Source: an uncultured Erysipelotrichaceae bacterium (GTDB lineage: Bacteria; Bacillota_I; Bacilli_A; RFN20; CAG-826). From it: 37,089 nucleotides of DNA. Position 1 is the first letter of the stretch. Every line of letters starts with the position of its first letter. The position numbers were made by a program, and so were the translations under genes. Under the pieces are notes generated by a model. It did not search any database, was not told where the DNA came from, and saw only the letters and a list, made by a program, of their open reading frames with translations. Below are positions 15,143-37,089 of the stretch, piece after piece. The DNA lies in assembly GCA_947166565.1 (NCBI GenBank), contig CAMVEL010000019.1, positions 1 through 37,089 on the forward strand, read 5' to 3'.

Positions 15143-15154
15143 GGAGGAAAGGAA

Positions 15155-16283: not shown

Positions 16284-16409
16284 CCAGATGGCTTAGAACT
16301 GCGCCTTTGGTCTCCCGGTATTGGCTCTGTCGGGTAGTTTGAGTCGGTTGGTCCCGTCGGGTAGTTGGGATCTTCATGAGACTGAAAGGCGCGCCTCTAA
16401 GCCACCTGG
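16284..16409. repeat. 126-base imperfect inverted repeat before DGR target 1
   Basis: Left arm 16284-16313 and right arm 16379-16409 are reverse complements over about 30 bases with few mismatches (CCAGATGGCTTAGA against TCTAAGCCACCTGG, then GCGCCTTT against AAAGGCGC). The 65-base loop holds GTCGGGTAGTT twice (16329-16339, 16356-16366). No T-tract follows on the plus strand, so it is not a simple terminator for the baseplate genes. It would form a large structure in the leader of the VR1 gene. Confidence 0.7.
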
Positions 16410-16456
16410 TCAAAAAAGCAATAAAACAATCGTTATTCAAAGAAAGGAAAAGAAAC

Positions 16457-18496
16457 ATGACTAACATCTTAGAACTGATGCTTCACGAATCTGGCGCGAT
16501 GACGCCGGTTCAAGAAGGCGCTGGCCTTGGATTCGAACTCGAAACCAATGCAACAACCATCCGCATCATTTTGAACAAAGCCGTTCAGGGCTTGGTCCAT
16601 TATCTCGAATTCTGCCGTCCTGATGGTACGACCATCTCTTCGAAGCCTCTTGACGAGGTCTCAAATTCGGTCGGTTTGAGATTCATTGAGCTTCCAGTCT
16701 CTGAACTCTTGACCCCGCAGCTTGGGCGCTATGCCATGCAATACGTTGGAAGATACGGCAATAAAGTAGTAAAATCCCAAATCGTCTACCTCGACGTCAA
16801 ATCCTCCATCAACGCTGGCGTGTTCATCCAACTCGAATCCGCCGACTTCGTCTCCTGGACGACTGAGCAGATTGCCGAAATCCGCTCTCTCATCAACGAA
16901 TTCGACATCAACAAAATCAAAGCCGAAATCCGCCAGGAAGTCTCCGAGGCTTTGCAAAAGGCCGTCGAAGAGGCGAAAGAGGAAATCATGGCCACCCAAT
17001 CCATGAACTATTTCGTCGGCGTCATTTTCTATGGTCACGAGACCAAAGGCGAAAGGCTCGGCGCGGCGACCGGAAGGCGCGCTGGCGTCAACGGCGACGT
17101 CAACGACTTTGACAACGACCCGATGTTCAAAATCGGCTCTGGGAAGGAATTCGGCGATGGCGTAGGCATCACCTTCTACAAAGACGTCCTCGGAAACGAC
17201 ATCGGTAAAGTCAAGGAATTCTACGTCTACCATTTCAAGAATAGCACCCCAGACGAAGACGATGCCTATTACGAGATCCTTTGCATCTCGCCAATCCGCT
17301 ACAACGAGAACTACAAACTCCACCCCGCGTTCCTCAACAAGGACAAGGAAAGCCGCGGATTCTTCACCTATGGCAAATACCCCGCTCAAAAATCGGACGA
17401 TGGCCTAAGGCTCGTTTGTAAATCGGGCAAAGCTCCGCTCAACAACACGACCATCACCGACGCGAGGCTTCTTGCGACCGCCGGAGGATTCCATATCGCA
17501 GAAAGGCGCAAATACAACGCTTTGGCCATGATGTTCACCATCGAATTCGCGACCAGGGATTCCCAATCGATCTTCTGGGGAATCGAAGGCAAAGAAGGTT
17601 TAGCATCCTTCGCCTATTGCGATGTGAAATACGACAAGACCATTGACGGCAAGCAAATCATCATCGGCTCTGGAGAGGATTTCGGGCTCGATGACTACAA
17701 AGCCACGCTTCAAGTCGGAATGAAACTCTCGTTCTACGACTGCGAGGATTGGTCTTTGGTTGGCGTCGGCCAAATCACGTCCATCGAGGAGACGACCGCC
17801 CATAACATCGATGACGACGAGGACCAAGAAGTTCTCATCGTCACCCATGACGGACCGTCAATCCCTTGGAAGACCACCGAAAAGGATTACGATGTATCCT
17901 GCTTCTATGACATCCGCTCCGGCTCAACCGATTCGCTTCCTGGCTCTTCCGCCGAAGATACGACCGCTCCTGAAGGGCTAAGGCACTTCAAATACCGCGG
18001 GTTCGAAGACCCGTATGGCATGCTTTATTGGATCATGGACGGCGAGATCTATCGCATCGAGAACAATCCACAAGGCGGCAAAACCTCGTATTACGTCAGC
18101 TATGACCCGTCCAAATACAAGAACGCAGATTACGTCGAAGGAGCGACGACTTATGCCTTGGAAGGCTATGAGGACGTCTATTCCGAACTTTATACCTCGG
18201 GAAGTTATGGCGTCGAATTCGTCGAAGGGAAAGACGGCCATCTCATCTTGGTGCCCAATGACGACGTTGGAGGAAGCACCGCGGATTATTATTGCGATAA
18301 CTGCAATATCCCCGGACATAGTAGGACGAGCGGCTCGACCGTCACGGTCGGGGACCCTCAGTTCGTCTGGGTCGGTGGCGTCTGCTTCGTCGACGGCGGC
18401 AACCAGGCTGGCGGAGGCTTGTTCTATTGCTTCTGCGGCTATTCGAGGAACTACGACTACGGCGCCGGGTTCCGCCTTTCTTCCGATCCTTCCTGA
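16457..18496 (+). CDS. DGR target 1: baseplate/receptor-binding protein with variable C-type lectin end
   Basis: A 679-residue protein. Residues 1-115 resemble the BppU-type baseplate attachment domain (IRIILNKAVQGLVHYLEFCRP). Residues about 155-175 form a coiled coil. The rest is a beta-rich region ending in a lectin-like domain, with YRGFEDPYGMLYWIMDG near 513-529, a mark of the C-type lectin fold used by many DGR targets. The variable repeat covers residues about 631-673, and the end is GFRLSSDPS. It likely contacts host receptors. The start at 16457 (AAAGGAAAAG upstream) was preferred to the in-frame ATG at 16376, which lies inside the stem-loop. Confidence 0.85.
   Translation: MTNILELMLHESGAMTPVQEGAGLGFELETNATTIRIILNKAVQGLVHYLEFCRPDGTTISSKPLDEVSNSVGLRFIELPVSELLTPQLGRYAMQYVGRYGNKVVKSQIVYLDVKSSINAGVFIQLESADFVSWTTEQIAEIRSLINEFDINKIKAEIRQEVSEALQKAVEEAKEEIMATQSMNYFVGVIFYGHETKGERLGAATGRRAGVNGDVNDFDNDPMFKIGSGKEFGDGVGITFYKDVLGNDIGKVKEFYVYHFKNSTPDEDDAYYEILCISPIRYNENYKLHPAFLNKDKESRGFFTYGKYPAQKSDDGLRLVCKSGKAPLNNTTITDARLLATAGGFHIAERRKYNALAMMFTIEFATRDSQSIFWGIEGKEGLASFAYCDVKYDKTIDGKQIIIGSGEDFGLDDYKATLQVGMKLSFYDCEDWSLVGVGQITSIEETTAHNIDDDEDQEVLIVTHDGPSIPWKTTEKDYDVSCFYDIRSGSTDSLPGSSAEDTTAPEGLRHFKYRGFEDPYGMLYWIMDGEIYRIENNPQGGKTSYYVSYDPSKYKNADYVEGATTYALEGYEDVYSELYTSGSYGVEFVEGKDGHLILVPNDDVGGSTADYYCDNCNIPGHSRTSGSTVTVGDPQFVWVGGVCFVDGGNQAGGGLFYCFCGYSRNYDYGAGFRLSSDPS
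18346..18476 (+). repeat. DGR variable repeat VR1
   Basis: 131 bases at the end of the target gene align without gaps to the template repeat at 18604-18734. About 22 positions differ by hand count, and every one is an adenine in the template. Examples of codon pairs, template to VR1: AAC to GTC, AAC to GGC, AAT to TAT, TAC to TGC. This adenine-only substitution is the signature of DGR mutagenic retrohoming. Outside the repeat, differences also fall on other bases. Confidence 0.96.
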
Positions 18497-18528
18497 TCGA
18501 GGAGGTCGCAAGGGGGATACCTCCCCTT
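18479..18528 (+). promoter_or_regulatory. IMH-like segment and hairpin after VR1
   Basis: These 50 bases recur after VR2 at 32728-32777 with one difference (GAT/GAC, silent). They are not present after the template repeat. The segment contains GGAGGT (18501-18506) pairing with ACCTCC (18519-18524), or alternatively AAGGGG pairing with CCCCTT. In studied DGRs an initiation-of-mutagenic-homing sequence plus a hairpin lies just after the variable repeat and marks it as recipient, so this is the likely equivalent. Confidence 0.8.
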
Positions 18529-18603
18529 TGCATAAACAAAACTTAAATATACAGGGCGCGACGCCGGGACTGGAGCCCCTCTTTGGTGGGGTTGTCTGTC
18601 CTT

Positions 18604-18734
18604 GGTCGAGAACCCTCAGTTCGTCTGGGTCGGTGGCAACTGCTTCAACGACGACAACAACCAGGCTAACGGAGGCTTGTTCAATTGCAACTACAACAAT
18701 TCGAGGAACTACGACAACAACACCGGGTTCCGCC
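18604..18734 (+). ncRNA. DGR template repeat (TR) within TR RNA
   Basis: A 131-base non-coding copy of VR1. Read in the VR frame it has about 11 AAC and 2 AAT codons, the adenine-rich codon use that lets random changes at A reach many amino acids. It lies between the target gene and the reverse transcriptase. The match to VR2 covers 18633-18738. The RNA probably starts upstream, after a small hairpin with AGCCCC and GGGGTT arms near 18573-18592, and runs to the reverse transcriptase gene. This fills most of the 372-base gap 18497-18868. Confidence 0.95.
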
Positions 18735-18790
18735 CATCGCCCACGGCCACCCTTCATATTGACCGGCGCCGTCCTGCCTGAATGGCGAAA

Positions 18791-20246: not shown

Positions 20247-20255
20247 GGAGGAGAT

Positions 20256-20405: not shown

Positions 20406-20645
20406 GCTGCATAGGACTTGGTCAAAGCACGTCAGAAGAGGCTCTTTCCTCTGGCGGATACGTTCCGCGTTCTGGAGGAATCGCCTCATAGACAGCCTCA
20501 TCCAAAGGAAATTGGGGAGAGGCTTCAAAAAAGACAGGAATGGGGATGAATAATCTTCGTCCCCGTCCTATAATTTAGATGCCATTCTCCTCGATGGCAC
20601 AGGGAAGAAGCGAAACCACAAACCAAGCCATAGGAGGAGAAGAAA
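20406..20645 (+). other. Gap before holin gene; no convincing coding sequence
   Basis: A 240-base stretch. A basic reading frame reaches a TAA near 20551 but has no start with a ribosome site. A stem can form between AGGAATGGGGA and TCCCCGTCCT (20536-20568), followed by ATAATTT, so a weak terminator or processing site is possible. TATAAT at 20569-20574 resembles a -10 box but has no matching -35. Nothing else is supported. Confidence 0.4.
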
Positions 20646-21179
20646 ATGAACGAGATCCTGCGTACCCTCGGCCTTTACTCGGTCAAGGATGCCATCATCA
20701 TCCTGATCGTCGTCATCTTGACGTCGCTCATCAAGATTCCGGTCAAGCGCGCTGCTAGCAAGTACGCTGAGAACGGCGGCAACAAAAGCGTGATCAACTT
20801 CCTGATCGTCTTCATCTGCTTGGCTCTTTCTTTCTTCGGTGCCCTTGCGCTGAAGCTCATCGAGCTCAACTGGGATTGGTCCGCCATTCCCTGGTGCGAG
20901 AAGGTGAGCGACGTCCTTCCGCAATGGGGCATCATCTTCGCTGGCGCATCAACCATCTACGCCATCGTCTGGGAGTCTGCCGAAAAAGGCGTCTCCGCAA
21001 TCTTCAAGCTCATCCTTGAGAAGCTCTTCAAAAAGGATGAGGAGAAGTCGGACGAGGTCAAGATGGTCGATGAATCACCCGTTCAGGTTGAGCAGCCAAA
21101 GCCGAAGCTGAAGGCGAAAGATCGGAGTCCCGAGCAAGAGGAAGTTCAGGTTGCAAAAAAAGATCGGTCGCTATTCTAA
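20646..21179 (+). CDS. Putative holin
   Basis: A 177-residue membrane protein with hydrophobic segments at about 14-31 (DAIIILIVVILTSLIKI), 49-68 (VINFLIVFICLALSFFGALA) and 90-106 (QWGIIFAGASTIYAIVW), then a charged, Pro/Lys/Glu-rich C-terminal tail of about 55 residues. Two to three spans, a cytoplasmic charged tail and the position after the tail module fit a holin that releases lysis enzymes. No endolysin gene is recognisable beside it, which weakens the assignment slightly. AGGAGGAG precedes the start. Confidence 0.68.
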   Translation: MNEILRTLGLYSVKDAIIILIVVILTSLIKIPVKRAASKYAENGGNKSVINFLIVFICLALSFFGALALKLIELNWDWSAIPWCEKVSDVLPQWGIIFAGASTIYAIVWESAEKGVSAIFKLILEKLFKKDEEKSDEVKMVDESPVQVEQPKPKLKAKDRSPEQEEVQVAKKDRSLF

Positions 21180-21184
21180 GATGG

Positions 21185-21215
21185 GAGGTCGCTTGAAAAG
21201 GCGGCCTCTTTGCTT
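21185..21215 (+). terminator. Rho-independent terminator after holin
   Basis: GAGGTCGC (21185-21192) pairs with GCGGCCTC (21201-21208), an 8-pair stem with one G-T, followed by TTTGCTT. It lies six bases after the holin stop and probably ends the late transcript. Confidence 0.65.
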
Positions 21216-21443
21216 ATGCCAAGACTGAGAAAATGGAAAAGGATACGCGTGGACGATTCCACGGTTGACGCCTTTAAAGGCTTCGAGATAGTCTCATATG
21301 GCGACCTTGAGATAATCGTTAGGAGGAAGTCGGACCATAGCGACGCCATCAGCTATTGGCTCATCGATGATGAGGCTTATGATGAACTCCTATCGTTCCT
21401 AATGGAAATCCTTCCGAAAGCAAGACCAGATTTCATGTGGTAG
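21216..21443 (+). CDS. Small hypothetical protein before attP
   Basis: A 75-residue protein starting MPRLRKWKRIRVDD, with a body of alternating charged and hydrophobic residues (EIVSYGDLEIIVRRKSD) and an acidic helix near the end. The start is uncertain: there is no ribosome site within the usual distance, and the gene begins inside or just after the terminator of the holin gene. It is in the same frame as the holin gene, separated from it by one TAA. Base use resembles the neighbours. Function unknown. Confidence 0.45.
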   Translation: MPRLRKWKRIRVDDSTVDAFKGFEIVSYGDLEIIVRRKSDHSDAISYWLIDDEAYDELLSFLMEILPKARPDFMW

Positions 21444-21467
21444 CCGTTGCATAAATATTGCATAAAA
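21444..21467 (+). repeat. Integrase arm-type repeat, left copy
   Basis: 24 bases identical to 21672-21695. The unit contains TTGCATAAATATTGCATAA, itself two TTGCATAA boxes. The two copies flank the tRNA-end core at 228-base spacing, the arrangement expected for arm-type binding sites of a tyrosine integrase at attP. Confidence 0.75.
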
Positions 21468-21480
21468 ATCTCCGAAAAAT

Positions 21481-21571
21481 TTACAAAATTCGCGCATTCA
21501 GGAAAAAGAATGATTCCAGAAAGTTTCGATTTTATCTTTATTTTACAAAATACGCGCATGCAGGAAAAAAT
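21481..21571 (+). repeat. Pair of 28-base direct repeats beside attP core
   Basis: Copy one (21481-21508) and copy two (21543-21570) share TTACAAAAT, CGCGCAT and CAGGAAAAA with only two to three differences; their starts are 62 bases apart. They lie between the left arm repeat and the core and may bind the integrase or an excisionase. Function is inferred from position only. Confidence 0.6.
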
Positions 21572-21591
21572 ATGGACTCGTCCGGTATGTC

Positions 21592-21619
21592 GGCGGTTCG
21601 AGTCCGCCCTCAGCCACCA
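21592..21619 (+). other. attP: attP core: 3' end of a tRNA gene
   Basis: GGCGG-TTCGAGT-CCGCC forms a perfect T-arm with 7-base loop, followed by CTCAGCC, a discriminator A and CCA. This is the 3' part of a tRNA gene. No matching 5' half (GGCTGAG start) lies upstream, so it is not a complete tRNA. With the integrase gene next door it marks the attachment site: integration would use a host tRNA gene and restore its 3' end. The exact crossover and tRNA identity cannot be read. Confidence 0.82.
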
Positions 21620-21630
21620 AAAGCAAGATT

Positions 21631-21658
21631 CCATCGGAGAAATTCGGTGGTTTTTTCT
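21631..21658 (+). terminator. Terminator carried with the tRNA end
   Basis: CCATCG (21631-21636) pairs with CGGTGG (21645-21650), followed by TTTTTTCTTTT. It follows the tRNA 3' end by 11 bases and would terminate the reconstructed host tRNA transcript after integration. Confidence 0.7.
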
Positions 21659-21671
21659 TTTCTGAAAATAA

Positions 21672-21695
21672 CCGTTGCATAAATATTGCATAAAA
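21672..21695 (+). repeat. Integrase arm-type repeat, right copy
   Basis: Exact second copy of the 24-base unit at 21444-21467, on the other side of the tRNA-end core. Probable arm-type integrase site. Confidence 0.75.
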
Positions 21696-21752
21696 GTACC
21701 AAGGAATTTCACCTATTGTCATCATGGTGAAAGGGGTTTTCACGATAATAAA

Positions 21753-21788
21753 AAATCCCCTGCGATGTAGCAAATAAGCAGAGGATTT
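21753..21788 (-). terminator. Terminator of the leftward lysogeny operon
   Basis: AAATCCCCTGC (21753-21763) pairs with GCAGAGGATTT (21778-21788) with one mismatch. Read on the minus strand the stem is followed by TTTTTTATTA. It lies about 75 bases after the end of the FxLYD-like gene and would stop transcription before attP. The remaining bases between it and that gene (21789-21860) show nothing else convincing. Confidence 0.75.
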
Positions 21789-21860
21789 CCAGGAGGCTTC
21801 GATAATGAATAGAAGCGACTTAAGTATATACGTAAGTAGTGGCTTGGCTAGGGTACGATA

Positions 21861-22358
21861 TCAGTATTGCCGGAACCAATCCAGAGACACGCTGTAGGTC
21901 GCTGGCTTCTTCTCCAGATACGGATCAACGGACCAATACGCAGTCTGTCCGACATTCAATCTTCCTGTGTTCGATAAAGCGTAATCGATTTTGATTCCGT
22001 TTTCGTCGAATAGATCTACCGTTACCATCACATAAGCCAAATCGACATTGCCATCGTTCTTCACGGTTCCTTCAGCGTGAAACTCCCAATATGAACCATC
22101 TCTCTTCATCGTTTGCTTTGATTTGTCGATGGCAACGGAAGCGTGAGCGTTGACTTGAGCGGTTGGAGTGCCGGTACTTTGGTTTAGATTCTTAAAATAC
22201 GAAGAGATGAAAACCGATGTGAGAACGATTGAAGCAGTGAAACCAACAAGGCCAATGATGAAGATGATGACTCTTTTTCTCTTTGATCTTTTTGCAGCTT
22301 CTTCGGCTTCGATTTTCTTTTCGATCTCCGCCATGTCTTCGGGATGTTCTACTAACAT
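21861..22358 (-). CDS. Membrane-anchored FxLYD-like protein
   Basis: A 165-residue protein with a charged cytoplasmic start, one membrane span near residues 29-53 (VIIFIIGLVGFTASIVLTSVF) and an extracellular beta-sandwich. The segment AEGTVKNDGNVDLAYVMVTVDLFDENGIKI is the pattern of FxLYD domains. It follows the integrase gene by 24 bases on the same strand with an AAGGAG site, so it is probably expressed in the lysogen. A surface role such as lysogenic conversion or superinfection immunity is inferred only from location and expression timing. Confidence 0.7.
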   Translation of the reverse strand: MLVEHPEDMAEIEKKIEAEEAAKRSKRKRVIIFIIGLVGFTASIVLTSVFISSYFKNLNQSTGTPTAQVNAHASVAIDKSKQTMKRDGSYWEFHAEGTVKNDGNVDLAYVMVTVDLFDENGIKIDYALSNTGRLNVGQTAYWSVDPYLEKKPATYSVSLDWFRQY

Positions 22359-22382: not shown

Positions 22383-23591
22383 CTATGCCTGAGACGGTTT
22401 CTTGAACATGTCTTCAACCATCGCTCTGACCTTCTCTTTGGTGGCGAGGTGATTATAGATGTTCACGTCGACCATCGCGGTATGGCCAAGCATTTTGGCA
22501 ATGACCTCCGGGCGATAGCCTAGCTCATGGGCGATGGTGGAGAAGGTGTGCCTTGCGGCGTGAGGGGTGACGACCTTCACTCCAGCGGCTTTGCAATACC
22601 TCGCCAAGCGTTTCCTATATGCCGAATGGTCTAATGGCATCCCTGGTTTTGTTCCGGGGAATAGGAAGTCTCTTGGCTTCAGTCCGAGGATCGCGATGTG
22701 GCTGGACAAAATGGAGGCGATGTCATCGGTGATCGGAACGGTTCGGAATCCGTTCTTGGTCTTGGTTCTCGCGAACTTCTTCATCTCGCCGTTCTCGTTT
22801 GGAGCGACCGTCGATTTGATTGTTATCTCATTCGTGGAGAAGTCGACGTCCTCCACGGATAGGGCCAGGGCTTCGTTAATGCGGAATCCTGCCGTGAAAA
22901 GCAGTCGGGTAAGGACATAATCCATCGACCCGTATTCAATCGCCTGTACGAGCCTAAAAACCTCGTCTAAGGTCAAAGCAATCGGAGGACGCTTGTGACC
23001 GCATAGGCTTTCGTCGGAATTCTTGATCTTCTTCATCACGGCTTTGCAGTGGCGATACTCGTCCATGTCGACAAGGTAATCGTTCCCCAAAGCGAACTCC
23101 AGCATGTTCAGGAACAAGGTCACGGCCCTGTTTTTGTCCACGATGGTCATGGAGTCTCCGTATTGAGTCTTGGCTTCCGCAATCGACTTCATGATCAGCC
23201 TTGCGTTGGCTTCCGTGAAGCATTCGAAAGCGCGTTTCCCCTTGAACACCGGTTCAAAGAACTTATTCGTAAATGGCCTGTCTTTGGAGTACCAAGTGTT
23301 GCCTTTTATGGAGTGGAGTAGACGATCTTCTTTGAACGCTTCCCTGAATTCCTCCCAAGAGGCGTTTTGCCTCGAAAACCTTGCAAAACTAAATTGCTTT
23401 CTCTTTTTTTCGATGGCGGAATCCAAAACGCTTTGGTAATCAGCTTTGGCTTCAGATTTCGTCCGATACCATTGCTTGCGAACGTATATCACACCAAGCT
23501 CTTGGTGTGTGTAGCATTGCTGAATCCGCCATCCTTTTCCGTCTTCAAAATAGAAAGGCGGGTCATTGTTTGTAGATTTCTTGTTTTTCAT
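22383..23591 (-). CDS. int: Tyrosine-type integrase
   Basis: A 402-residue site-specific recombinase that would insert the phage at a tRNA gene and help excise it. The N-terminal part has an AP2-like arm-binding region (GWRIQQCYTHQELGVIYVRK), then the SAM-like core-binding domain and the catalytic domain with R237 (TAGFRINEAL), H344 and R347 (PHAARHTFS), H370 (MLGHTAM) and Y379 (VNIYNHL). All five key residues are present. It lies beside attP as expected. The ribosome site AAGGAG is about 14 bases from the start, a long spacing. Confidence 0.96.
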   Translation of the reverse strand: MKNKKSTNNDPPFYFEDGKGWRIQQCYTHQELGVIYVRKQWYRTKSEAKADYQSVLDSAIEKKRKQFSFARFSRQNASWEEFREAFKEDRLLHSIKGNTWYSKDRPFTNKFFEPVFKGKRAFECFTEANARLIMKSIAEAKTQYGDSMTIVDKNRAVTLFLNMLEFALGNDYLVDMDEYRHCKAVMKKIKNSDESLCGHKRPPIALTLDEVFRLVQAIEYGSMDYVLTRLLFTAGFRINEALALSVEDVDFSTNEITIKSTVAPNENGEMKKFARTKTKNGFRTVPITDDIASILSSHIAILGLKPRDFLFPGTKPGMPLDHSAYRKRLARYCKAAGVKVVTPHAARHTFSTIAHELGYRPEVIAKMLGHTAMVDVNIYNHLATKEKVRAMVEDMFKKPSQA

Positions 23592-23658
23592 GTAGAATTA
23601 TTTCGCTCCTTAATCGATTTGCAGTCATTACTGGGCATTGGCAGGGACATCCCTGCTT

Positions 23659-23994
23659 TTATTTTTTAATGATGTACTCGCTTACGAACGCGAGAGTTTT
23701 CCTAAGTTGCTCTTCGTCCATTAAGCGAATGGAACGTTCAAGTTCGGCTTTCGTTGTTTCCGCTTCCTTGGAGAGAATCTTCCGTTGAACGTCATATCCT
23801 AGTATCCATGCAGGATTGACTTGGAATCTTTGGGAGAGCTTTTCAAGGATGTTGAGCTTCAGTGTTTCGATGTTACCTGTCTCCCAGCGAGACACGGTTG
23901 TCTTGGTTACACCGACTATCTCAGCGAGCTCGGTTTGGGTCAAATTATGCTCCTCTCGAAGAGTTTTTATCCTTGGTTTTCCTCTTTTTTCCAT
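23659..23994 (-). CDS. CI-like transcriptional repressor
   Basis: A 111-residue HTH_3 (Xre-family) protein. The helix-turn-helix spans about residues 17-40 (LTQTELAEIVGVTKTTVSRWETG). The C-terminal 45 residues are a helical, charged region likely used for dimer formation; no peptidase (self-cleavage) domain is present, so it is the short type of repressor. It is transcribed leftward, away from the Cro-like gene, with the operator region between them. It would keep the early operon off in the lysogen. Confidence 0.9.
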   Translation of the reverse strand: MEKRGKPRIKTLREEHNLTQTELAEIVGVTKTTVSRWETGNIETLKLNILEKLSQRFQVNPAWILGYDVQRKILSKEAETTKAELERSIRLMDEEQLRKTLAFVSEYIIKK

Positions 23995-24396: not shown

Positions 24397-24705
24397 ATGA
24401 CTGCAAATCAATTAGAGTCGCTCCTATGCAAGCCTGTTTGGGACTACCGCGACGTCGAGTTATTCACAGGCGTGTCCTCAAAGACTGCTTACGAAATCAT
24501 CGAAGATCTTCGCGGCCCGGATCCAAAGCACAAGAAAAGCGGTTGGGTAGATGCATTTCCGAAAGGAGTGCGCCGCGATGCCGTCCTGGAGAAATACGCA
24601 ACCGATGCGAAGACCGAAATGGGAATCGCCATCATCGCGAGGCTCTCCACCAACTTCTTGAGGGCATTGGCATCGATGGAAGGAGGTAACGATGGCGGAG
24701 TATAG
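24397..24705 (+). CDS. Excisionase-like / AlpA-type DNA-binding protein
   Basis: A 102-residue protein. Residues 14-40 (VWDYRDVELFTGVSSKTAYEIIEDLRG) followed by GWVDAFPKGVRRDAVLEKY fit the winged MerR-like helix-turn-helix of excisionase and AlpA-type proteins. The start at 24397 has AAAGGAG upstream; the frame extends to 24319 inside the Cro-like gene, which is less likely. It could direct excision with the integrase or regulate early genes. The family call is from the motif shape, without a key catalytic residue. It overlaps the next gene by 14 bases. Confidence 0.6.
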   Translation: MTANQLESLLCKPVWDYRDVELFTGVSSKTAYEIIEDLRGPDPKHKKSGWVDAFPKGVRRDAVLEKYATDAKTEMGIAIIARLSTNFLRALASMEGGNDGGV

Positions 24706-25663
24706 CAAGGAAAAGCTCTATTTCCTCAAACTCCCGAAAGACTTCTTCCAGTCCTACAAGATGAGGGCTTTGGAGGGAATCGCAGGAGGAAAGGACTACG
24801 AGCTCATGTACCTCAAGCTGCTGTGCGAGTCTATCAGCCACAATGGATACCTCCGCTTCGATGAGAGGACTCCATACACCGCCGAGATGATCGCCGGCAT
24901 CACGAATTCGCCGATCGACACCGTCCGAGTCGGAATCGAGGTGCTTCAGAGATTCGGCTTGGTCGAGATCAACGACTCAAGGACCATCTACATGCCTGAA
25001 GTGCCGTCCATGACAGGAACCACAACTGTCGGCGCAGCCAAGAAGCAAAAGCAAATCGCAAACAGGGGAGAGGTGGAACAAAAGGTGGAAGATTTTCCAC
25101 CAAGAGAAATAAGACAACTAGATAACGGTATGTCTACTAACGTATCCATACCTACAGAGAACTTAGAAGATTCCTCCTCACCTAAAGGTTCGTCGTCATC
25201 TCACCGTAAGAAAAAGTATGACCAAAGTAAAAAGCAAAATCCTTTGCTCGAACTGATGGTCAAATTCAAATTTCTCGAAGAATGGGAACTCGATGATCCG
25301 CAATGGGAGGATTTGGTAAACGAATTCCTTTTGGAACGGAAGCAAGAACTTGGCGGCAAGCAGGGATTCATCGATGCCAAGAAGCGCATCGACTACGTCC
25401 TAGACCGCATATCCACAACCGTGTTCGAAGGTGAAAGCAGGGAAGGCAAGCCGAACTACCACCGCGAAGTCGACCCTCAAATCATGGAGACCATCGAGAA
25501 CAAGTTCGCTTGGTTCTCAAGGGCCATCCGGAAAGCCGTAGAGCAACTCGAAGCCGGCGAGCGGATCGCCGAGCAATATCAGCAGATGCTGGACTCCGAG
25601 CCACCGGAGGAAGCCGAATCCATCGACGATGACATCGATGACGGCGGCGACCAGCCATTCTAA
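24692..25663 (+). CDS. Replisome organizer / replication initiation protein
   Basis: A 323-residue protein. Residues 1-110 (YFLKLPKDFFQSYKMRAL onwards, with ELMYLKLLCESISHNGYLRF) match the phage replisome-organizer N-terminal winged-helix domain. A low-complexity linker near 145-185 rich in Ser, Pro and Lys follows, then a helical C-terminal region and an acidic tail. It would bind the phage origin and recruit host helicase-loading proteins. The linker-coding part is more AT-rich and holds short repeats that could be the origin. AAGGAGG precedes the start. Confidence 0.85.
   Translation: MAEYSKEKLYFLKLPKDFFQSYKMRALEGIAGGKDYELMYLKLLCESISHNGYLRFDERTPYTAEMIAGITNSPIDTVRVGIEVLQRFGLVEINDSRTIYMPEVPSMTGTTTVGAAKKQKQIANRGEVEQKVEDFPPREIRQLDNGMSTNVSIPTENLEDSSSPKGSSSSHRKKKYDQSKKQNPLLELMVKFKFLEEWELDDPQWEDLVNEFLLERKQELGGKQGFIDAKKRIDYVLDRISTTVFEGESREGKPNYHREVDPQIMETIENKFAWFSRAIRKAVEQLEAGERIAEQYQQMLDSEPPEEAESIDDDIDDGGDQPF
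25072..25152 (+). other. Candidate replication origin inside the replisome organizer gene
   Basis: GGTGGAA occurs at 25072-25078 and 25084-25090 and inverted (TTCCACC) at 25095-25101. GGTATG (25127-25132) is inverted as CATACC (25147-25152). The stretch is more AT-rich than its flanks. Firmicutes phages with this type of initiator often carry the origin within the initiator gene. The repeats are short, so this is a suggestion. Confidence 0.4.
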
Positions 25664-30374: not shown

Positions 30375-31265
30375 TTGGAAGATTACGAACTCACGCTGTT
30401 CGACCGAATCGAGGTCATCAAAACCACCATCAACAAATACGGAGAGGGGAACTTCTATATAAGCTTCTCCGGCGGGAAGGACTCAACCGTCTTATCCCAC
30501 CTGGTCGATATGGCCATCCCAAACAACAACATCCCTCGTGTGTTTATCGACACCGGCATCGAGTACTTGGCCATCCGCGAATTCGTGCTGACCAAGGCAA
30601 AAGCTGACGAACGGTTCCAGATCATCAAGCCAAGCAAGCCGATAAGGAAATTGCTTGAGGAAAACGGATACCCGTTCAAGTCTAAGGAGCATTCGATGAA
30701 GGTCGGACTCTACCAAAAAGGGAGCCGGGCCAAGAACATCATGGCATACAAAGACGGCGAGAATTCATTCTCCTGCCCGAAGATGCTCCTCTACCAGTTC
30801 GAAGAGGGATTCGACCTCAAGCTCTCATCCGACTGCTGCCTGAATATGAAGAAAAGGCCAGTCCATAAGTGGGAAGCAGAATCTGGTCGGCACATCGCCA
30901 TCATCGGCATCCGCATGGCCGAGGGTGGCCAGAGGAAGAACCACAAAGGGTGCGTCGTCTTCGACAAGAAGGGAGGCATTAAGCGGTTCAAGCCGCTCAA
31001 CCCCGTATCCGACGCCTTCGAGGATTGGCTAATCGAAAGGGAGAAGATCGAGCTCTGCAAGCTCTATTACCCGCCGTTCAACTTCAAGCGGACGGGGTGC
31101 AAGGGCTGTCCGTTCTCCCTTGACCTTCAGGAGCAGCTCACCACGATGCTCCTGTACATGCCAGCCGAGAGGCAGCAATGCGAAGTCATCTGGAAGCCTG
31201 TGTATGAAGAGTATCGGCGAATTGGCTTCCGGCTCGACCAAATCGAGCAACTGAAGCTCTTCTAG
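30375..31265 (+). CDS. PAPS-reductase-family protein (N-type ATP-pyrophosphatase)
   Basis: A 296-residue protein. The PP-loop SGGKDSTVL (residues 32-40) binds ATP pyrophosphate. Further family marks are FIDTGIEY (58-64), CC at 154-155 and GCKGC (241-245), which could hold an iron-sulfur cluster. Phage members of this family may take part in sulfur transfer or nucleic-acid modification, as DndC does in phosphorothioation, but there are no DndB/D/E partners here. The start is taken as TTG at 30375, without a clear ribosome site; an upstream ATG in the same frame is cut off by TGA. Confidence 0.82.
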   Translation: MEDYELTLFDRIEVIKTTINKYGEGNFYISFSGGKDSTVLSHLVDMAIPNNNIPRVFIDTGIEYLAIREFVLTKAKADERFQIIKPSKPIRKLLEENGYPFKSKEHSMKVGLYQKGSRAKNIMAYKDGENSFSCPKMLLYQFEEGFDLKLSSDCCLNMKKRPVHKWEAESGRHIAIIGIRMAEGGQRKNHKGCVVFDKKGGIKRFKPLNPVSDAFEDWLIEREKIELCKLYYPPFNFKRTGCKGCPFSLDLQEQLTTMLLYMPAERQQCEVIWKPVYEEYRRIGFRLDQIEQLKLF

Positions 31266-31315: not shown

Positions 31316-31843
31316 ATGCCAGAACGAAAGATTAGCGACCTTGAGATCGATGAGGTCCGAGTCGAGATTCGAAAACTGAACGACATCTTCAAGGAAGGGT
31401 TCCTGAACAACCACCTCGACTTCGTGATCTGCCATCCTCTCTACCTATGCGAAATATACGAGGAAGAATACCTCGTCATCAATGGGAAGGTCTACACGAT
31501 TCCTAAACGAGGCCTCTACTGCAACATCTTCTTCCAAACCTCGTCCTGCAAAACGAAGCAAGACGTCCAACGAAGCGTCATCGAATGGTTCAGCAGAGAC
31601 GCCTATAAGACGAGATTCTATGGAGGCAGGACGGACGAGCTGATACACAAGTACGTCTTAGACGGCATCAACGCCTACCTAAAAACCGATTTCACCGAAG
31701 AGCAGATCGAACACATCTACACCTACCTCGGAAACGGCGTAAACCGCGAATTATGCGTGAAATTCATCGAATCCGGATTCGACCTGAGCGTATTGCCGGA
31801 CGAAGCAAAAGCAAGCGCAAAAGCGCAAGGAGCAAAGAAATGA
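31316..31843 (+). CDS. Hypothetical protein upstream of DGR target 2
   Basis: A 175-residue protein, helical at the start (DLEIDEVRVEIRKLNDIFKE) with a central beta region (YLVINGKVYTIPKRGLYCNIFF) and a helical second half. It ends in an Ala/Lys-rich tail. It overlaps the start of the second DGR target by 4 bases (ATGA), so the two are translated together and may act together, for example as partner or carrier of the lectin-fold protein. No family was recognised. The ribosome site is weak and distant. Confidence 0.65.
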   Translation: MPERKISDLEIDEVRVEIRKLNDIFKEGFLNNHLDFVICHPLYLCEIYEEEYLVINGKVYTIPKRGLYCNIFFQTSSCKTKQDVQRSVIEWFSRDAYKTRFYGGRTDELIHKYVLDGINAYLKTDFTEEQIEHIYTYLGNGVNRELCVKFIESGFDLSVLPDEAKASAKAQGAKK

Positions 31844-32745
31844 AAGCAAAAATCTCAATCAAGAACTTCGAAAAACTCTCCAGCGGAGACCTCGTCCCCG
31901 CTTACCTGGACGGCGAGTTGATCTCCTGCAAGGTCCAGAGAGCGTTAAAAACTCAAACCGTCGTCACCTCGTCTGCGGACGGATTCCTCCATGAGGCCAT
32001 CAAGGACAATCCCGAATTCATCATCGTATCCGAGGAAAACCGAATCGCCGCTAAAGACAAGATGGTCCCATTCGGCGAAATCAAGCTGAAGCCGATCTAC
32101 GTCAAAGTCGATGGCGACGAAACCGAATTCGCCTATGAGCCGTTCGAGGACGCGGTTCCCCTGATTCCCCAAACCGTCTCAAGGACTCGCGCCGCGAACG
32201 ATGACGGATACCCAATCGTCAGCATCACCTATGAGAAAGCCGAACTAGCGATGAAGGGAAGTGGCAAAAGGCACATCTCCTGGCGCACCATCCTCTACTT
32301 CCAATTGCTGTTCCTCCTCGCTTACCGCACGAGGAACCCGTTCACCATCATGATGGGCGAGACGTGGAAGGGGATTGACCCAGTAACCAAATCGCATTGG
32401 TGCCGAGTCGGATTATCACTTGGCCCGACGTCTTATTCCGCTTGCCTCAGCCGCAACGATGACACGAGGCAGATCTCATTCCTGCAGATCGAGAACCTAT
32501 TTGGCGGAGGCTGGTGCTTCTTCGACTGGAGGCATGACGAATCCGAAACCGTCCTCTGGAAGCTGTTCCTGAGGTTAGGAGGCGCGGAAGACAATTGGTA
32601 CAGGGACGAAAACGTTGGCGTTTGTGGCCTCTGCTTCGGCGGCGCCTACGACCGGGCTAGCGGGGGCTTGTTCTATTGCTACTACCTCAATTCGTGGATC
32701 TACGACGGCAGCGCCGGGTTCCGCCCATCTTCCGACCCTTCCTGA
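31840..32745 (+). CDS. DGR target 2: lectin-fold protein with variable end
   Basis: A 301-residue protein. Residues 1-110 form a separate N-terminal domain not shared with target 1. Residues 124-230 fit the C-type lectin fold of DGR targets (GYPIVSITYEKAELAMKG, HISWRTILYFQLLFLLAYRT, FLQIENLFGGGWCFFDW). Residues 262-296 are the variable repeat, and the end GFRPSSDPS is almost that of target 1. It has no baseplate attachment domain and no signal peptide, and lies in the early operon, so it may work inside the cell or be a late-assembling accessory fibre. The start (31840) overlaps the previous stop. Confidence 0.88.
   Translation: MKAKISIKNFEKLSSGDLVPAYLDGELISCKVQRALKTQTVVTSSADGFLHEAIKDNPEFIIVSEENRIAAKDKMVPFGEIKLKPIYVKVDGDETEFAYEPFEDAVPLIPQTVSRTRAANDDGYPIVSITYEKAELAMKGSGKRHISWRTILYFQLLFLLAYRTRNPFTIMMGETWKGIDPVTKSHWCRVGLSLGPTSYSACLSRNDDTRQISFLQIENLFGGGWCFFDWRHDESETVLWKLFLRLGGAEDNWYRDENVGVCGLCFGGAYDRASGGLFYCYYLNSWIYDGSAGFRPSSDPS
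32624..32729 (+). repeat. DGR variable repeat VR2
   Basis: 106 bases align without gaps to the template at 18633-18738. About 21 positions differ by hand count, and every one is an adenine in the template. Examples, template to VR2: AAC to CTC, AAC to GGC, CAG to CGG, AGG to TGG, GGA to GGG. The last two show changes at adenines outside AAC codons. It differs from VR1 at most of the same positions, so the two repeats were mutated independently. Confidence 0.95.
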
Positions 32746-32777
32746 TCGAGGAGGTCGCAAGGGGGATACCTCCCCTT
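32728..32777 (+). promoter_or_regulatory. IMH-like segment and hairpin after VR2
   Basis: 50 bases matching 18479-18528 with one silent difference. GGAGGT (32750-32755) pairs with ACCTCC (32768-32773), or AAGGGG with CCCCTT. Its conservation across two unrelated genes, spanning coding and non-coding bases, indicates selection on the DNA or RNA itself, as expected for the recipient signal of mutagenic homing. Confidence 0.8.
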
Positions 32778-32796
32778 GGCAAATCTAACGCGGTTC

Positions 32797-32837: not shown

Positions 32838-33587
32838 ATGAAAACACTGGAAACCGAGGACCTTGAGCAGAGGCTTTTGCAGAGATATTTCAAGATGGGC
32901 AGCCACATCGCCTTCGAGGTTGACCTTCGACGGGCGATGACTCGGACGATCGTGAAGGACCAAATGTCGCGCCAGCCGAAGAACATAGAATTGGACGATC
33001 CTGGCATCGCGGACGTCGTCCAAGTGGACAACTACGGAGTGATTACCTGCTTCGAATTGAAGGTCACGAAGTCCGACTTCCACAGCGATGCGAAACTGAG
33101 TTTTATCGGAAACAAGAACTATTACGTGATGCCGGAGGAACTCTACGAGAAGGTCAAGGACGAGATACCTCCCAACATCGGCGTGCTGGTTCCACTTGGA
33201 AACAAAGACCTCCGATTCGTTAAGAAATGCAAAAGCCAGAAGATGGTTTACGACAAGGAGGCCGTCCTCATAGCGATGGTCACGGCCAGTCACAACCACA
33301 CGACGCTGTCCAACCTCATGGAGTTCGCGCCATACAGGTTCAAGAAAGCGGAAAGGCCTCAGAAGCCGAACACGCCTATGTTCGATAAGAAGAAGCACAG
33401 ATTCGCGCGCCTTGAGGACGGGACCATCGAGCCGCTCTACCATCCGAACGGCAAGCCACGGAACTTCTACAAAGACGAGTTCGGAGAGTGGCGCATGGAC
33501 TTCGACAGGTACGCGGATACCGATGGCATGAAAATGCAGATGTACATGAGCGAACTCATAACCGAGTTCTTGGAGGAAAATAAATGA
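32838..33587 (+). CDS. PD-(D/E)XK nuclease-like protein (MmcB-like)
   Basis: A 249-residue protein. The N-terminal half has GIADVVQVDNYGVITCFELKVTKSDF with D59, E73 and K75 in the D-(X)n-ExK order of PD-(D/E)XK nucleases, and then YYVMPEELYEKVKDEIPPNIGVLVP, which matches MmcB-type DNA-repair-associated proteins. The C-terminal part is basic and variable. It may be a DNA repair or restriction-like nuclease; activity cannot be judged from sequence alone. GAAAGGAG precedes the start, and its stop overlaps the next gene (ATGA). Confidence 0.65.
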   Translation: MKTLETEDLEQRLLQRYFKMGSHIAFEVDLRRAMTRTIVKDQMSRQPKNIELDDPGIADVVQVDNYGVITCFELKVTKSDFHSDAKLSFIGNKNYYVMPEELYEKVKDEIPPNIGVLVPLGNKDLRFVKKCKSQKMVYDKEAVLIAMVTASHNHTTLSNLMEFAPYRFKKAERPQKPNTPMFDKKKHRFARLEDGTIEPLYHPNGKPRNFYKDEFGEWRMDFDRYADTDGMKMQMYMSELITEFLEENK

Positions 33588-34276
33588 ACAAAACAAAAAT
33601 CGATTGGTGCGATTGCACTATTAACCCAGTAATAGGATGCAAAAATGGTTGCCCTTACTGCTATGCCGAAAGACTTAACAAAAGATTTGGATTCATTCCT
33701 AACTGGAAAGAACCGCAATTCTTTCCTGAAAGATTAAAGCAGCTTAATTCAAAGACACCTAAAACAATCTTTATGGATTCTATGAGTGACGTTGGTCATT
33801 GGAATAAAGATTGGGGAGAAACTATCAGGAAAGCAATCTTGAGCAACCCTCAACACGCCTATATATTTCTCACAAAAAATCTTATTTTTGGAAGTGTTAT
33901 TCAGCCAATAAGATTAGAACCTAACATTTTTTGTGGAAGGTCTGTAACAAAGCAAAGCGACTTATGGCATATGGGCGGCGAAGGATATGAATTTCTTTCT
34001 ATCGAACCATTGTTAGAAAAAATTAATTTACCAGATTTCGATATAAGGCCAGCAATGAGAACCTTAAAGGCGATTATCATTGGTGCAGAAACAGGCAATA
34101 GAAAAGACAAAATCATTCCGAAGAAAGAATGGGTTTTAAGTCTAGTTAAATATTGCAATAAAAGACACATCAAAGTCTTCATGAAAGAATCATTAAGGGA
34201 ACTTATGGGTGACGATTTCAGGCAAGACAAACTTCCTTGGTACGAATATTTAGAATCAGAGACAAGGGGAAACTGA
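33584..34276 (+). CDS. DUF5131 / Gp37-Gp68 radical-SAM-like protein
   Basis: A 230-residue protein with KIDWCDCTINPVIGCKNG then CPYCYAERL. Cysteines C19, C23 and C26 form the CX3CX2C motif that holds a 4Fe-4S cluster in radical SAM enzymes. The DSMSDVGHWNKDW and IFLTKN segments are typical of the phage Gp37/Gp68 family (DUF5131). The substrate of the family is unknown. The gene is much richer in A and T than the rest of the genome, as is the next gene, so both were probably acquired recently. Confidence 0.87.
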   Translation: MNKTKIDWCDCTINPVIGCKNGCPYCYAERLNKRFGFIPNWKEPQFFPERLKQLNSKTPKTIFMDSMSDVGHWNKDWGETIRKAILSNPQHAYIFLTKNLIFGSVIQPIRLEPNIFCGRSVTKQSDLWHMGGEGYEFLSIEPLLEKINLPDFDIRPAMRTLKAIIIGAETGNRKDKIIPKKEWVLSLVKYCNKRHIKVFMKESLRELMGDDFRQDKLPWYEYLESETRGN

Positions 34277-34658: not shown

Positions 34659-34897
34659 AACCTAAGCAAGCAGACAAATATTGCGGAAAACTGGTCGCCG
34701 TCACGTTCAAAGAAAGTTGGTTCAACGAAGCCTTTCAAAGGTGGATATTCGAGGAAGAGGAGTACACAGGTATCCTTGAGCACTGTCCATATGAAGGGCA
34801 GGAGAGATACTACCAGCTCACCAGCACGGATTGTCTACCAACCGACCGAGCCTGTTGGAGCGCAAACAGAATGAAAAGGATAAGAAGTTTGGAGTAA
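34655..34897 (+). CDS. Small hypothetical protein
   Basis: An 80-residue protein overlapping the previous gene by 4 bases (ATGA) with AAGGAGG upstream. The body (LVAVTFKESWFNEAFQRWIFEEEEYTGILEH) looks like a small beta-barrel with acidic surface. Base use returns to the GC level of the rest of the genome here. Function unknown; its place before the ASCH-like gene suggests shared expression only. Confidence 0.55.
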   Translation: MKPKQADKYCGKLVAVTFKESWFNEAFQRWIFEEEEYTGILEHCPYEGQERYYQLTSTDCLPTDRACWSANRMKRIRSLE

Positions 34898-34902
34898 CTC
34901 AA

Positions 34903-35547
34903 ATGAAATCATTCCTAATATCAATCCACTCCGAGTGGGTTATAAAAATCTTCAATGGCGAGAAGACCAGAGAAATAAGAAAGACCGCCCCAAAGGAATG
35001 GGTGGACTACCTCTCTGGAAAGACCAAGGAGAAGCCAAAGCCGATGACAGGGTATATCTACTGCACGCAAGGCAAGCCTTATGTCGCATATATCAACGGG
35101 AAACTTTACACGCAAAGTGACGGCACAGGAAGAGGACCAGCGGGCATTTGCTTCAACGGAAAAGTAGTCGCCAAGTTTACGCTTATGGAAGTAGAGCGGT
35201 TCTCAAAAATAAAAATGTTCGATGGATCGCTTGCCTTCGAAGGCCCGCTAACCGAAATCATCTCAATATACGAAAACGCATGCCTTAGCCTGGAGCAACT
35301 TCTTGCTTACTGCAAAATTGGCGACAACTACGCTTGGCACATCTCCGACCTAGAAATATTCGACAGGCCTTGGGAACTTGGTGATGGTAGCGTATTTAGG
35401 GAAGTGCGCCCATCTATGTTCTCACACGACGAGCCATTTGACCCGTTAAGCGATTCTGACAACAGATACGTCCGAGTGACGGAAGATTGGAATAAGCCTA
35501 TATATAAAGCGCCGCAGTCTTGGTGCTACGTGGAGGTGCAAAGATGA
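34903..35547 (+). CDS. ASCH/PUA-like domain protein
   Basis: A 214-residue protein. The opening FLISIHSEWVIKIFNGEKTREIRKTAPKEW is the ASCH-type pattern (a PUA-fold domain), and YAWHISDLEIFDRPWEL near residues 144-160 is the second conserved block seen in phage ASCH proteins. Such domains bind RNA or modified nucleosides. The start at 34903 was chosen over 34831 because the longer frame would overlap the previous gene. The stop overlaps the lipoprotein start (ATGA). Confidence 0.75.
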   Translation: MKSFLISIHSEWVIKIFNGEKTREIRKTAPKEWVDYLSGKTKEKPKPMTGYIYCTQGKPYVAYINGKLYTQSDGTGRGPAGICFNGKVVAKFTLMEVERFSKIKMFDGSLAFEGPLTEIISIYENACLSLEQLLAYCKIGDNYAWHISDLEIFDRPWELGDGSVFREVRPSMFSHDEPFDPLSDSDNRYVRVTEDWNKPIYKAPQSWCYVEVQR

Positions 35548-35816
35548 GGAAAAGATTCCTTATGGCTCTCGCCTTGGTTGCGTTGTGCCTCGCTTCATGC
35601 GATAAACCATCATATTCAGGCGGAGAATCCCTCAAAGCGCATTTCGTGGATTTGGGGCAATGTCTGAAAATAGCGAGTTATGGAGAAGAGCGTACCGGCA
35701 TCTTCTACATCAAAATGAAAGACGGGACGAAGATATTCGTCCATTCCGCTAAAGTCTACATCATAGAAGGTAATTGCCCATTCTGCGAAGGAGAAGAATA
35801 TGCCAAGAAGAGCTAG
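35544..35816 (+). CDS. Small lipoprotein
   Basis: A 90-residue protein with a lipoprotein signal peptide: MRKR, hydrophobic FLMALALVALCLA, and lipobox LASC with C19 as the modified cysteine. The mature part has a beta-rich segment (GIFYIKMKDGTKIFVH) and a CPFC motif near the end that could bind metal or form a disulfide. The start at 35544 overlaps the ASCH gene stop. Phage lipoproteins of this size often block superinfection; here that is inference. Confidence 0.75.
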   Translation: MRKRFLMALALVALCLASCDKPSYSGGESLKAHFVDLGQCLKIASYGEERTGIFYIKMKDGTKIFVHSAKVYIIEGNCPFCEGEEYAKKS

Positions 35817-36459
35817 AACCATAACAACCGTCTCGCATCGTCAGGTGAAGAAGCCGGGCGGGGCGAAGTCAACGCACCCTATAAAAGACCCAGAGAAAAG
35901 GGTGCTCTTCAAGAACTGGTTCAAAACGCGGTTCGAGAAAGAGAAAAGCGAGAAGAGGAAGCCAATCTTCTATCGCGACTACATGATCGTTATGACGGGC
36001 CTATACACCGCCTTCCGCGCCGAGGACCTTCTCCAGCTTCGCCTGAAGGACGTCGCTGGAGGTTGGCTTGACATCAAGGAGAACAAAACCGGTAAGGTGG
36101 CGTCATTCCCACTGGCTGATGATTACCTTAACGCCTTGAAAGAATACGCTGCATACCTCAAACTCGAACCGAATGATTACTTATTCAATTCATCCCGTCC
36201 AGGATGCATAAACGCAATCACGAGGCAAAGAATGGATAGGGTCATCAAGAAAGCTTGCGAAGAAGTCGGAATCGGATTCACAGTCGGAATGCATGGCCTA
36301 AGGAAGACGTTTGGGTATTGCTGCGTCTCCCAATGGGGATTCGATACGAAGGACGTCAGGGTGTTCCTTAACCATTCGTCCGAGGCGACCACCGAGCATT
36401 ACATCGAATGGAGCAGGGACGACATCGCCAAGGAGAGGAGGAAGGAGATACGTATATGA
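35800..36459 (+). CDS. Short tyrosine recombinase (catalytic domain only)
   Basis: A 219-residue tyrosine recombinase. The catalytic set is present: R73 (TAFRAEDLL), a Lys in the beta-hairpin (NKTGK, about 97-99), H165 and R168 (MHGLRKTF), H192 (LNHSS) and Y201 (TEHYIEW). It lacks the arm-binding and most of the core-binding region of the integrase at 22383. It lies far from attP, in the early operon, so it may resolve phage DNA multimers, act as an XerC/D-like helper or be an inversion enzyme. It overlaps the lipoprotein gene by 17 bases with GGAG upstream. Confidence 0.87.
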   Translation: MPRRARTITTVSHRQVKKPGGAKSTHPIKDPEKRVLFKNWFKTRFEKEKSEKRKPIFYRDYMIVMTGLYTAFRAEDLLQLRLKDVAGGWLDIKENKTGKVASFPLADDYLNALKEYAAYLKLEPNDYLFNSSRPGCINAITRQRMDRVIKKACEEVGIGFTVGMHGLRKTFGYCCVSQWGFDTKDVRVFLNHSSEATTEHYIEWSRDDIAKERRKEIRI

Positions 36460-36894: not shown

Positions 36895-37089
36895 GGAGAT
36901 ACTGATCGCCTTCATCAAAGCCCAGTCCTCGAACCAGCATGAGCTCGCCTCCGTTCTTGCGAGCAATCTCAGGAAGAGGGCGAGAAGGTCTAGCGACAGA
37001 AGATTCCTAGTATGTGTTGACCACCTCGTTAATGGAAAGTCCTTGACGGAGACCGCGAGGCAGCGTGCGTACACGCGGGCAGGGGTGAA
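36878..37089 (+). CDS. Small HTH-like protein crossing the circle junction (possible late regulator)
   Basis: The start is ATG at 36878; the frame runs off the window end and continues at base 3 to TAA at 93-95, giving 83 residues. It begins MERQDEEILIAFIKAQSSNQ, has a basic middle (LRKRARRSSDRR), then LVNGKSLTETARQRAYTRAG, a helix-turn-helix-like pattern similar to sigma region 4. It is the last gene before the terminator at 117 and the late operon, the place occupied by late activators or antiterminators (Q, RinA, ArpU) in other phages. The role is inferred from position. GAAAGACAAG is a weak ribosome site, so coupling to the gene upstream is likely. Confidence 0.75.
   Translation, partial: MERQDEEILIAFIKAQSSNQHELASVLASNLRKRARRSSDRRFLVCVDHLVNGKSLTETARQRAYTRAGV
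37035..37089. repeat. Terminal direct repeat, right copy (circular closure)
   Basis: Exact copy of bases 1-55. See the left copy. The unit genome is 37,034 bp if the overlap is counted once. Confidence 0.9.

Follow-up and report, generated by a model that had tools for sequence, protein, structure and literature searches.

Diversity-generating retroelements (DGRs) are usually interpreted as a means of altering receptor binding. Among the described phages in which a second target is served, Quimbyvirus was reported to carry another C-lectin target, non-structural in appearance, in the vicinity of methylases, a nuclease, and a tRNA ligase (Benler et al., 2021; PMC8008677), and in four inducible gut prophage species published in 2025, a second variable repeat (VR) is located distal to the reverse transcriptase (RT), near methyltransferase or counter-defence genes (PMC12629997). 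Tentaclin DGRs also possess two targets of differing architecture, as in the present locus, with a C-lectin domain in each Tentaclin target; both targets, however, are located in the DGR cassette, one VR lies in a 5' part, and their role is described as receptor-binding (PMC10743442). Two VRs and two targets are likewise present in the Faecalibacterium phages Lelie, Lagaffe_CP, and CP11, and alignments for two of these three phages showed adenine-specific variation at both VRs, but the targets differ from ours in being DUF6273-bearing or Mtd-like (PMC11792537). In the survey by Roux et al., which covered more than 30,000 DGRs, VRs distant from the RT would go undetected (PMC8144416), and distal DGR targets are, therefore, probably under-counted.

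The locus in the present study resembles the four prophage species in its layout and in the suggested counter-defence setting, which were reported mainly for Bacteroidota phages (PMC12629997). With Quimbyvirus and phages of the LoVEphage type it shares a single RT and template repeat (TR), a first VR (VR1) in a tail gene, changes confined to adenines, and a second VR (VR2) in a small, non-structural-looking gene within a block of methylase, nuclease, PAPS reductase, and ASCH genes. It differs from them in that their VR2 protein, of 194-195 aa, has no blastp kinship to ours and their hosts are Bacteroidota; moreover, in the LoVEphage type VR2 is on the strand opposite to the TR and the VR is inside the protein, whereas our VR is at the protein end. 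A preliminary description of this DNA had regarded a diversified target in an early block as unusual, a view that needs to be tempered because distal second VRs beside methylases are in print (PMC8008677, PMC12629997).

The window, by which we mean the whole stretch of 37,089 nucleotides that was analyzed, carries an identical 55-nt direct repeat at positions 1-55 and 37035-37089 and, therefore, probably represents a full circle of 37,034 bp. Its features are listed in Table 1. Two tyrosine-recombinase genes are present, one at 22383-23591 on the minus strand by the repressor and the other at 35800-36459 on the plus strand, just before the packaging genes. Rfam and tRNA scans of the window returned nothing, and a promoter and terminator scan, which gave fewer sites than were found in shuffled sequences, is silent on the different temporal control suggested earlier for the two targets.

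Table 1. Positions of the repeats, their flanks, and the genes discussed in the text
Feature	Position	Strand	Remarks
VR1 target, tail protein, 706 aa	16376..18496	+	phrog_5302 'tail protein', E 6.3e-15
VR1, variable repeat	18349..18480	+	3' end of tail gene 16376..18496
VR1 3' flank	18481..18540	+	hairpin 18508-18531
TR, template repeat	18607..18738	+	between VR1 gene and RT; pairs with VR1 (from 18349) and VR2
Reverse transcriptase, 357 aa	18869..19942	+	start with good ribosome site; longer alternative start 18782
Repressor/integrase	22383-23994	-	position marker for 'early' side
DnaD-like replisome organizer	24692-25663		VR2 lies in block after it
PAPS-reductase-like protein (PP-loop)	30375..31265	+	PF01507, E 1.8e-13; 55% identical to G609 gene
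phrog_7711 protein (unknown function), 175 aa	31316..31843	+	E 1.2e-27; coupled to VR2 gene
VR2 target gene, 301 aa	31840..32745	+	ATGA overlap with preceding gene; probable C-lectin-type head, short N-terminal part
VR2, variable repeat	32624..32729	+	3' end of early-block gene 31840..32745
VR2 3' flank	32730..32789	+	holds stop codon; hairpin arms 32758-32764, 32772-32778
Possible MmcB-like nuclease	32838..33587	+	Pfam E 0.027, below cut-off (weak)
DUF5131 protein	33584..34276	+	PF07505, E 1e-27; 50-56% identical to G242, G619, G620 genes
ASCH-like protein (weak)	34831..35547	+	Pfam ASCH, E 0.086, below cut-off; PADLOC PDC-M11B, E 6.3e-6

A search of the window for a 169-nt repeat located copies at three positions (18364, 18622, and 32613), the second of which is the TR. 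About 21 differences between VR2 and the TR, all at template adenines, had been noted previously; over the 106 nt matching TR positions 18633-18738, there are exactly 21 at adenines and none elsewhere, with 21 of the 34 template adenines and 0 of the 72 other positions changed (Fisher p 1.2e-13), and the adenine-specific pattern is confirmed. VR1, compared with the TR over 18375-18480, has 21 mismatches at adenines and one at another base. The TR was placed at every position of the window in both orientations; non-adenine mismatches were fewest for the TR itself (0), VR2 (0), and VR1 (1), after which come placements with 35, 36, and 36. In the frame of VR2, 11 of the TR's 12 AAY codons are altered, in line with the usual design of DGR templates.

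The RT gene adjoining the TR is of the DGR type. Its product has the motifs IGLYPSQ and YVDD, the first of which conforms to the [IVL]GxxxSQ mark of DGR RTs, and it matches PF00078 (E 2.4e-16) and, in its longer form, phrog_1423 (E 1.4e-83). The DGR accessory protein Avd, common near the RT but not required, had no Avd-family Pfam match in the four window ORFs at 19902-22358, near the RT. The RT would make errors at adenines when copying the TR transcript, and the resulting cDNA would take the place of the homologous 3' ends in the tail gene with VR1 and in the 301-aa gene with VR2 located 14 kb away. The earlier proposal that one RT and one TR serve two targets, the second of them far from the tail module, is supported, and this phage DGR appears to keep altering two proteins, the tail tip and a small early-block protein.

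In phage BPP-1, a hairpin or cruciform downstream of the VR is required for homing, and the hairpin loop of this type is the 4-nt GRNA (PMC3240598). In the 60 nt beyond the stretch homologous to the TR, VR1 and VR2 are identical at 53 positions, whereas the TR agrees with VR1 at 15 and with VR2 at 14. The DNA following VR1 (z -2.79, matched by 1 of 200 shuffles) and that following VR2 (z -2.69, 2 of 200) both fold into a hairpin with arms of 7-10 bp and a loop that differs from that of BPP-1-type DGRs; the stretch that follows the TR lacks it (z -0.07, 89 of 200). This shared flank probably marks both VRs as recipients, and its absence the TR as the donor. In the related genome G609, the hairpin TAAGGGG-TGT-CCCCTTA follows both VRs (z -2.94 and, after VR2, -1.59 with 13 of 200 shuffles as good), but the DNA downstream of the TR can fold as well (z -1.88), and in the related genome G619 the hairpin at VR2 is no better than shuffles (z -0.21, 82 of 200); the target mark is, therefore, clear in the window and mixed in its relatives. 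Judging from these sequence features, retrohoming would take place into both VRs, and the DGR may be active now.

Regarding the gene setting of VR2, the ATGA coupling reported earlier is correct, in that the preceding gene ends in TGA and the VR2 gene starts with ATG at 31840; the product of that preceding gene had no blastp match in the relatives compared. From its position, the VR2 gene would be expressed early. Its surroundings had been described as an early metabolic block with PAPS-reductase-like and nuclease-like genes. The PAPS-reductase domain, upstream, stands, but support for the nuclease, downstream, is weak: the MmcB-like match is below the cut-off, and the protein also matches phrog_2776 (unknown function, E 6.6e-26) and phrog_5429 'DNA repair protein' (E 3.4e-5). 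The word metabolic is doubtful, since three neighbors match PADLOC models, namely, the PAPS-reductase-like protein BrxP (E 8.5e-14 at residues 10-101, with a weaker match to SspD), the DUF5131 protein PDC-M30B/M41B, and the ASCH-like protein PDC-M11B. The neighborhood thus leans towards host-conflict genes as far as such matches tell, the PADLOC names being names of models. The ASCH-like gene has relatives in genomes G242 and G619, that of G619 being recognized as ASCH at E 6e-5.

Homologues of the VR2 protein were found in four genomes, G609, G242, G619 (locus L050), and G620 (locus L051), the G242 protein being 28% identical (E 7.1e-7; 5e-14 in a pairwise comparison). G609 and G242 belong to the same order as the window, the host of which is therefore probably one of the Bacilli. 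Matches occurred in 2 of 224 genomes (one of them chance-like) and 3 of 395 (including the same chance-like one), and in further sets in 4 of 279, 2 of 18, 2 of 392, and 2 of 291, where the sets overlap and the counts include the window's own genome and weak matches. Relatives were absent from IMG/VR scans and from tblastn searches of named phages and plasmids, which indicates that the family is rare. A fragment in genome G1018 matches the family at E 1.3e-4 and contains three internal stops. A match in genome G084 to VR2 residues 41-140 (E 4.2e-4) was rejected as chance; it is a region of an 885-aa frame with a lipoprotein-like visible start.

The non-tail setting of the gene is not a quirk of one contig, as it is also found in non-tail blocks of all four relatives, and in none of the five members does it adjoin tail genes. 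It is flanked by two SSB-like genes and by sigma-like and RusA genes in G242, G619, and G620, and in G609 it has a methylase/PAPS-reductase block on one side and the packaging genes on the other; in that genome, the PAPS-reductase-like gene is seemingly split into two frames (2702-3268 and 3430-3678 of L039, G609:C5). Between the window and the compared parts of the four relatives (blastp, E 1e-4), the VR2 gene, the PAPS-like, DUF5131, and ASCH-like genes, the replisome organizer, the integrase, and the RT are common, and no structural gene is. The window, G609, and G619, which make up three of the five members, each have a TR that matches the VR2-type gene of the same genome with changes wholly or nearly confined to adenines, and this TR also matches a second, separate, tail-type target beside the RT. 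The order in G609 is TR-RT-VR1 with an early homologue, in which 14 of 21 adenines and 2 of 52 other positions of the VR are changed; the tail-type gene beside the RT, with a BppU N-terminal domain, shows 11 changes at adenines and 2 at other bases. The TR of G619, on contig C24, differs over a 60-nt stretch from the gene beside the RT at 14 adenines and from the early gene on contig C23 at 11-12 adenines, with no other change in either; over 85 nt, which runs past the end of homology, the numbers are 20 adenines and 6 others for the gene beside the RT and 17 and 4 for the early gene. Both contigs are syntenic with a single prophage of G242.

In G242, the VR2-type gene is intact, there is no counterpart to the VR1-TR-RT part of G619, and no DGR RT was detected in the genome, which suggests that the early gene outlives the DGR cassette. 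Between G242 and G619, the four genes beside the VR2 gene are 86-97% identical, the VR2 gene 76%, and the replisome organizer 73%. No RT was found in the G620 genome, where the contig with the gene is 20.9 kb long. The preliminary description had considered a VR2 that is fixed in related genomes; the contrary was found, in that a comparison of the VRs of G609 and G242 shows differences at 9 of 21 template-adenine positions versus 1 of 52 others (and at 25 of 300 sites upstream).

Parallel cases were found in phages with a different target protein. In PV4-TP1 (PQ571302.1, LoVEphage/Quimbyvirus type), VR1 belongs to a tail gene, and the minus-strand VR2 is part of a 194-aa gene adjoining genes for PAPS reductase, ASCH, and methylase. 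Across six records of the LoVEphage type, in which the TR of PV4-TP1 was used for all and two VRs are identical, VR2 varies at 21 of 22 template-adenine positions, 0 of 72 other positions, and 18 of 491 outside the VR. In the Bacteroides phage Versailles (ON453897.1), 14 of 22 adenines and 0 of 74 other positions of VR2 are changed, and VR1, in a tail gene, has 11 changes at adenines and no other. Its second VR, like ours, is in a recombination/replication block, which comprises SbcC-like, RecT-type, NinB, and replisome genes, with the VR2 target between NinB and the replisome organizer; this target differs from ours in belonging to the PV4-TP1 family (38% identity to the PV4-TP1 protein). The VR2 protein of the window gave blastp E values of 2.5 or worse and a best hhalign E of 0.046 against the PV4-TP1 protein.

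Among DGR loci that were not chosen for a distal VR, a second VR was present in 0 of 8 within the sequence scanned, that is, in G018:C86, G007:C136, G007:C67, G016:C30, and G016:C32 (three of these five contigs being under 13 kb) and the complete records of Idris, Epona, and vir215. A same-strand scan of LBR48 revealed no TR-VR pair. G609, G619, PV4-TP1, and Versailles are not a random sample, having come to attention either by way of a VR2-type protein or as a suspected Quimbyvirus-like record. The same-genus genomes G007 (L023 and L026) and G016 (L024 and L025) each have two DGR loci, with one VR apiece in the sequence scanned. In comparison with the open-licence literature in PMC, the present analysis would extend the range of targets by another protein family and that of carriers by phages of Bacilli and other gut-type MAGs; it would also add a location in replication/recombination blocks for two unrelated families and the retention of the gene where the RT has been lost.

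The VR2 protein has no relative by sequence in Pfam, PHROG, or the PDB, and no signal peptide or membrane segment (by eye) and no tail shaft were noted. The lectin fold assumed previously thus has no match in Pfam or the PDB, and two AlphaFold2 models based on five-row alignments had mean pLDDT values of 32.5 and 30.7. A profile of the VR2 family with the VR left out found a 501-aa DGR target of genome G142 (E 8.8e-7 among 439 proteins), which has an apparent N-terminal membrane segment and the motifs GVENWYG...WCDG, which, by eye, we take to be of the C-lectin type. This target (14586-16091) is on a circular 16-kb contig (L079, G142:C14, 16108 bases), with the TR at 145-208 and the VR at 15973-16036 showing 10 adenine and 0 other changes; the contig also has a 55-nt end repeat, an integrase, and several membrane-type proteins, and no tail module among its listed ORFs. 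Against nine tail heads, the same profile gave no more than weak matches (hhalign E 0.0023 for G298 and 0.041 or worse for the others). Although the tail heads match weakly, the match to the G142 target makes a C-lectin-type head without a tail shaft probable for the VR2 protein, as far as may be judged from its sequence. The two targets of the window had been called unrelated, which is too strong: outside the VR, they have no significant similarity in VR-free hhalign, but since the profile retrieves a DGR target that is membrane-anchored and bears C-lectin motifs, both probably share the head fold.

Two candidate origins or links were rejected. The VR2 scaffold does not appear to have been copied from the tail head encoded in the window itself, as blastp between them finds the VR alone and VR-free hhalign is not significant. 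PHROG 2889 does not serve as a bridge, as phrog_2889 matches the VR2 family weakly (E 0.0013 to 0.0058) and gave two fragment matches in 159 genomes, one of which is the DGR tail-type target of G298. In that genome, the tail-type target is followed by the RT at L067 (G298:C140), and G298:C136 contains another strong RT match.

On balance, we favor the view that the window is a temperate phage with a two-target DGR, the VR2 protein of which is an intracellular, fast-changing binder of a variable partner, for which a defence factor of the host or of a rival element is the first candidate. The protein would be a stand-alone binding head, originating from a replication/host-conflict block, that acts inside the infected cell or the lysogen. 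An intracellular role is suggested by the gene setting, by the lack of a shaft or export signal (by eye), and by retention of the gene without an RT. The protein would, accordingly to this view, be absent from the virion, and its role may be one in counter-defence; counter-defence is our first guess, followed by a replication adaptor and then by an adhesin of the virion or cell surface.

An adaptor for host replication or recombination proteins would also be intracellular, and the tail tip and the adaptor would then tune entry and genome replication, respectively, to a new host. The position of the gene between SSB-like and sigma-like/RusA genes in G242, G619, and G620 fits such a role, as does that of the unrelated VR2 target of Versailles beside the replisome organizer. 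In the window, G609, and PV4-TP1, however, the gene is nearer to PAPS-reductase, methylase, or ASCH-like genes, and replication proteins are slow-changing, such that hypermutation seems excessive for binding them. We regard this explanation as unlikely.

Somewhat less likely still is that the VR2 protein is an accessory adhesin, carried by the virion or displayed on the host cell, and that its gene is merely distant from the tail module. Phage DGR targets are mostly tail proteins (PMC8144416), the apparent membrane segment of the G142 target found by the VR-free profile indicates that related heads can sit at the surface, and the weak similarities to phrog_2889 and to the tail-type target of G298 point in the same direction. 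These points are set against the lack of a signal peptide, membrane segment, or shaft in the window protein and against the distance from tail genes in every member, the window, G609, and G619 having a separate tail-type target.

We consider it very unlikely that VR2 is a relic, i.e., an old VR copy in which rewriting has ended. G242 illustrates that such a gene may be retained without an RT, but VR2 of the window shows no drift at the 72 non-adenine positions, its flank and hairpin match those of VR1, and its frame is open; in addition, G609 and G619 are independently in the same state. Chance has already been refuted as the source of the VR2 pattern by the adenine bias and by the jump from 1 to 35 non-adenine mismatches over all placements, and an assembly artefact, which a repeat in a MAG contig could in principle cause, is scarcely credible given that the gene around VR2 is not repeated and has counterparts in other assemblies and that the two-target layout recurs in other contigs.

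The retention of a second target in non-tail blocks of otherwise different phages suggests that targeted hypermutation serves a step after entry. The second targets span at least two unrelated protein families, that of the window and that of PV4-TP1 and Versailles, and the existence of cultured phages with the same layout (the LoVEphage type and Versailles) makes the question open to bench work. We tentatively raise the possibility that several unrelated lineages of gut phages have independently put a small, stand-alone early-block binder under DGR hypermutation, which tracks host or rival factors inside the cell, with the tail tip being retuned from the same TR. If this is true, such binders would be the phage counterpart of a diversified repertoire.
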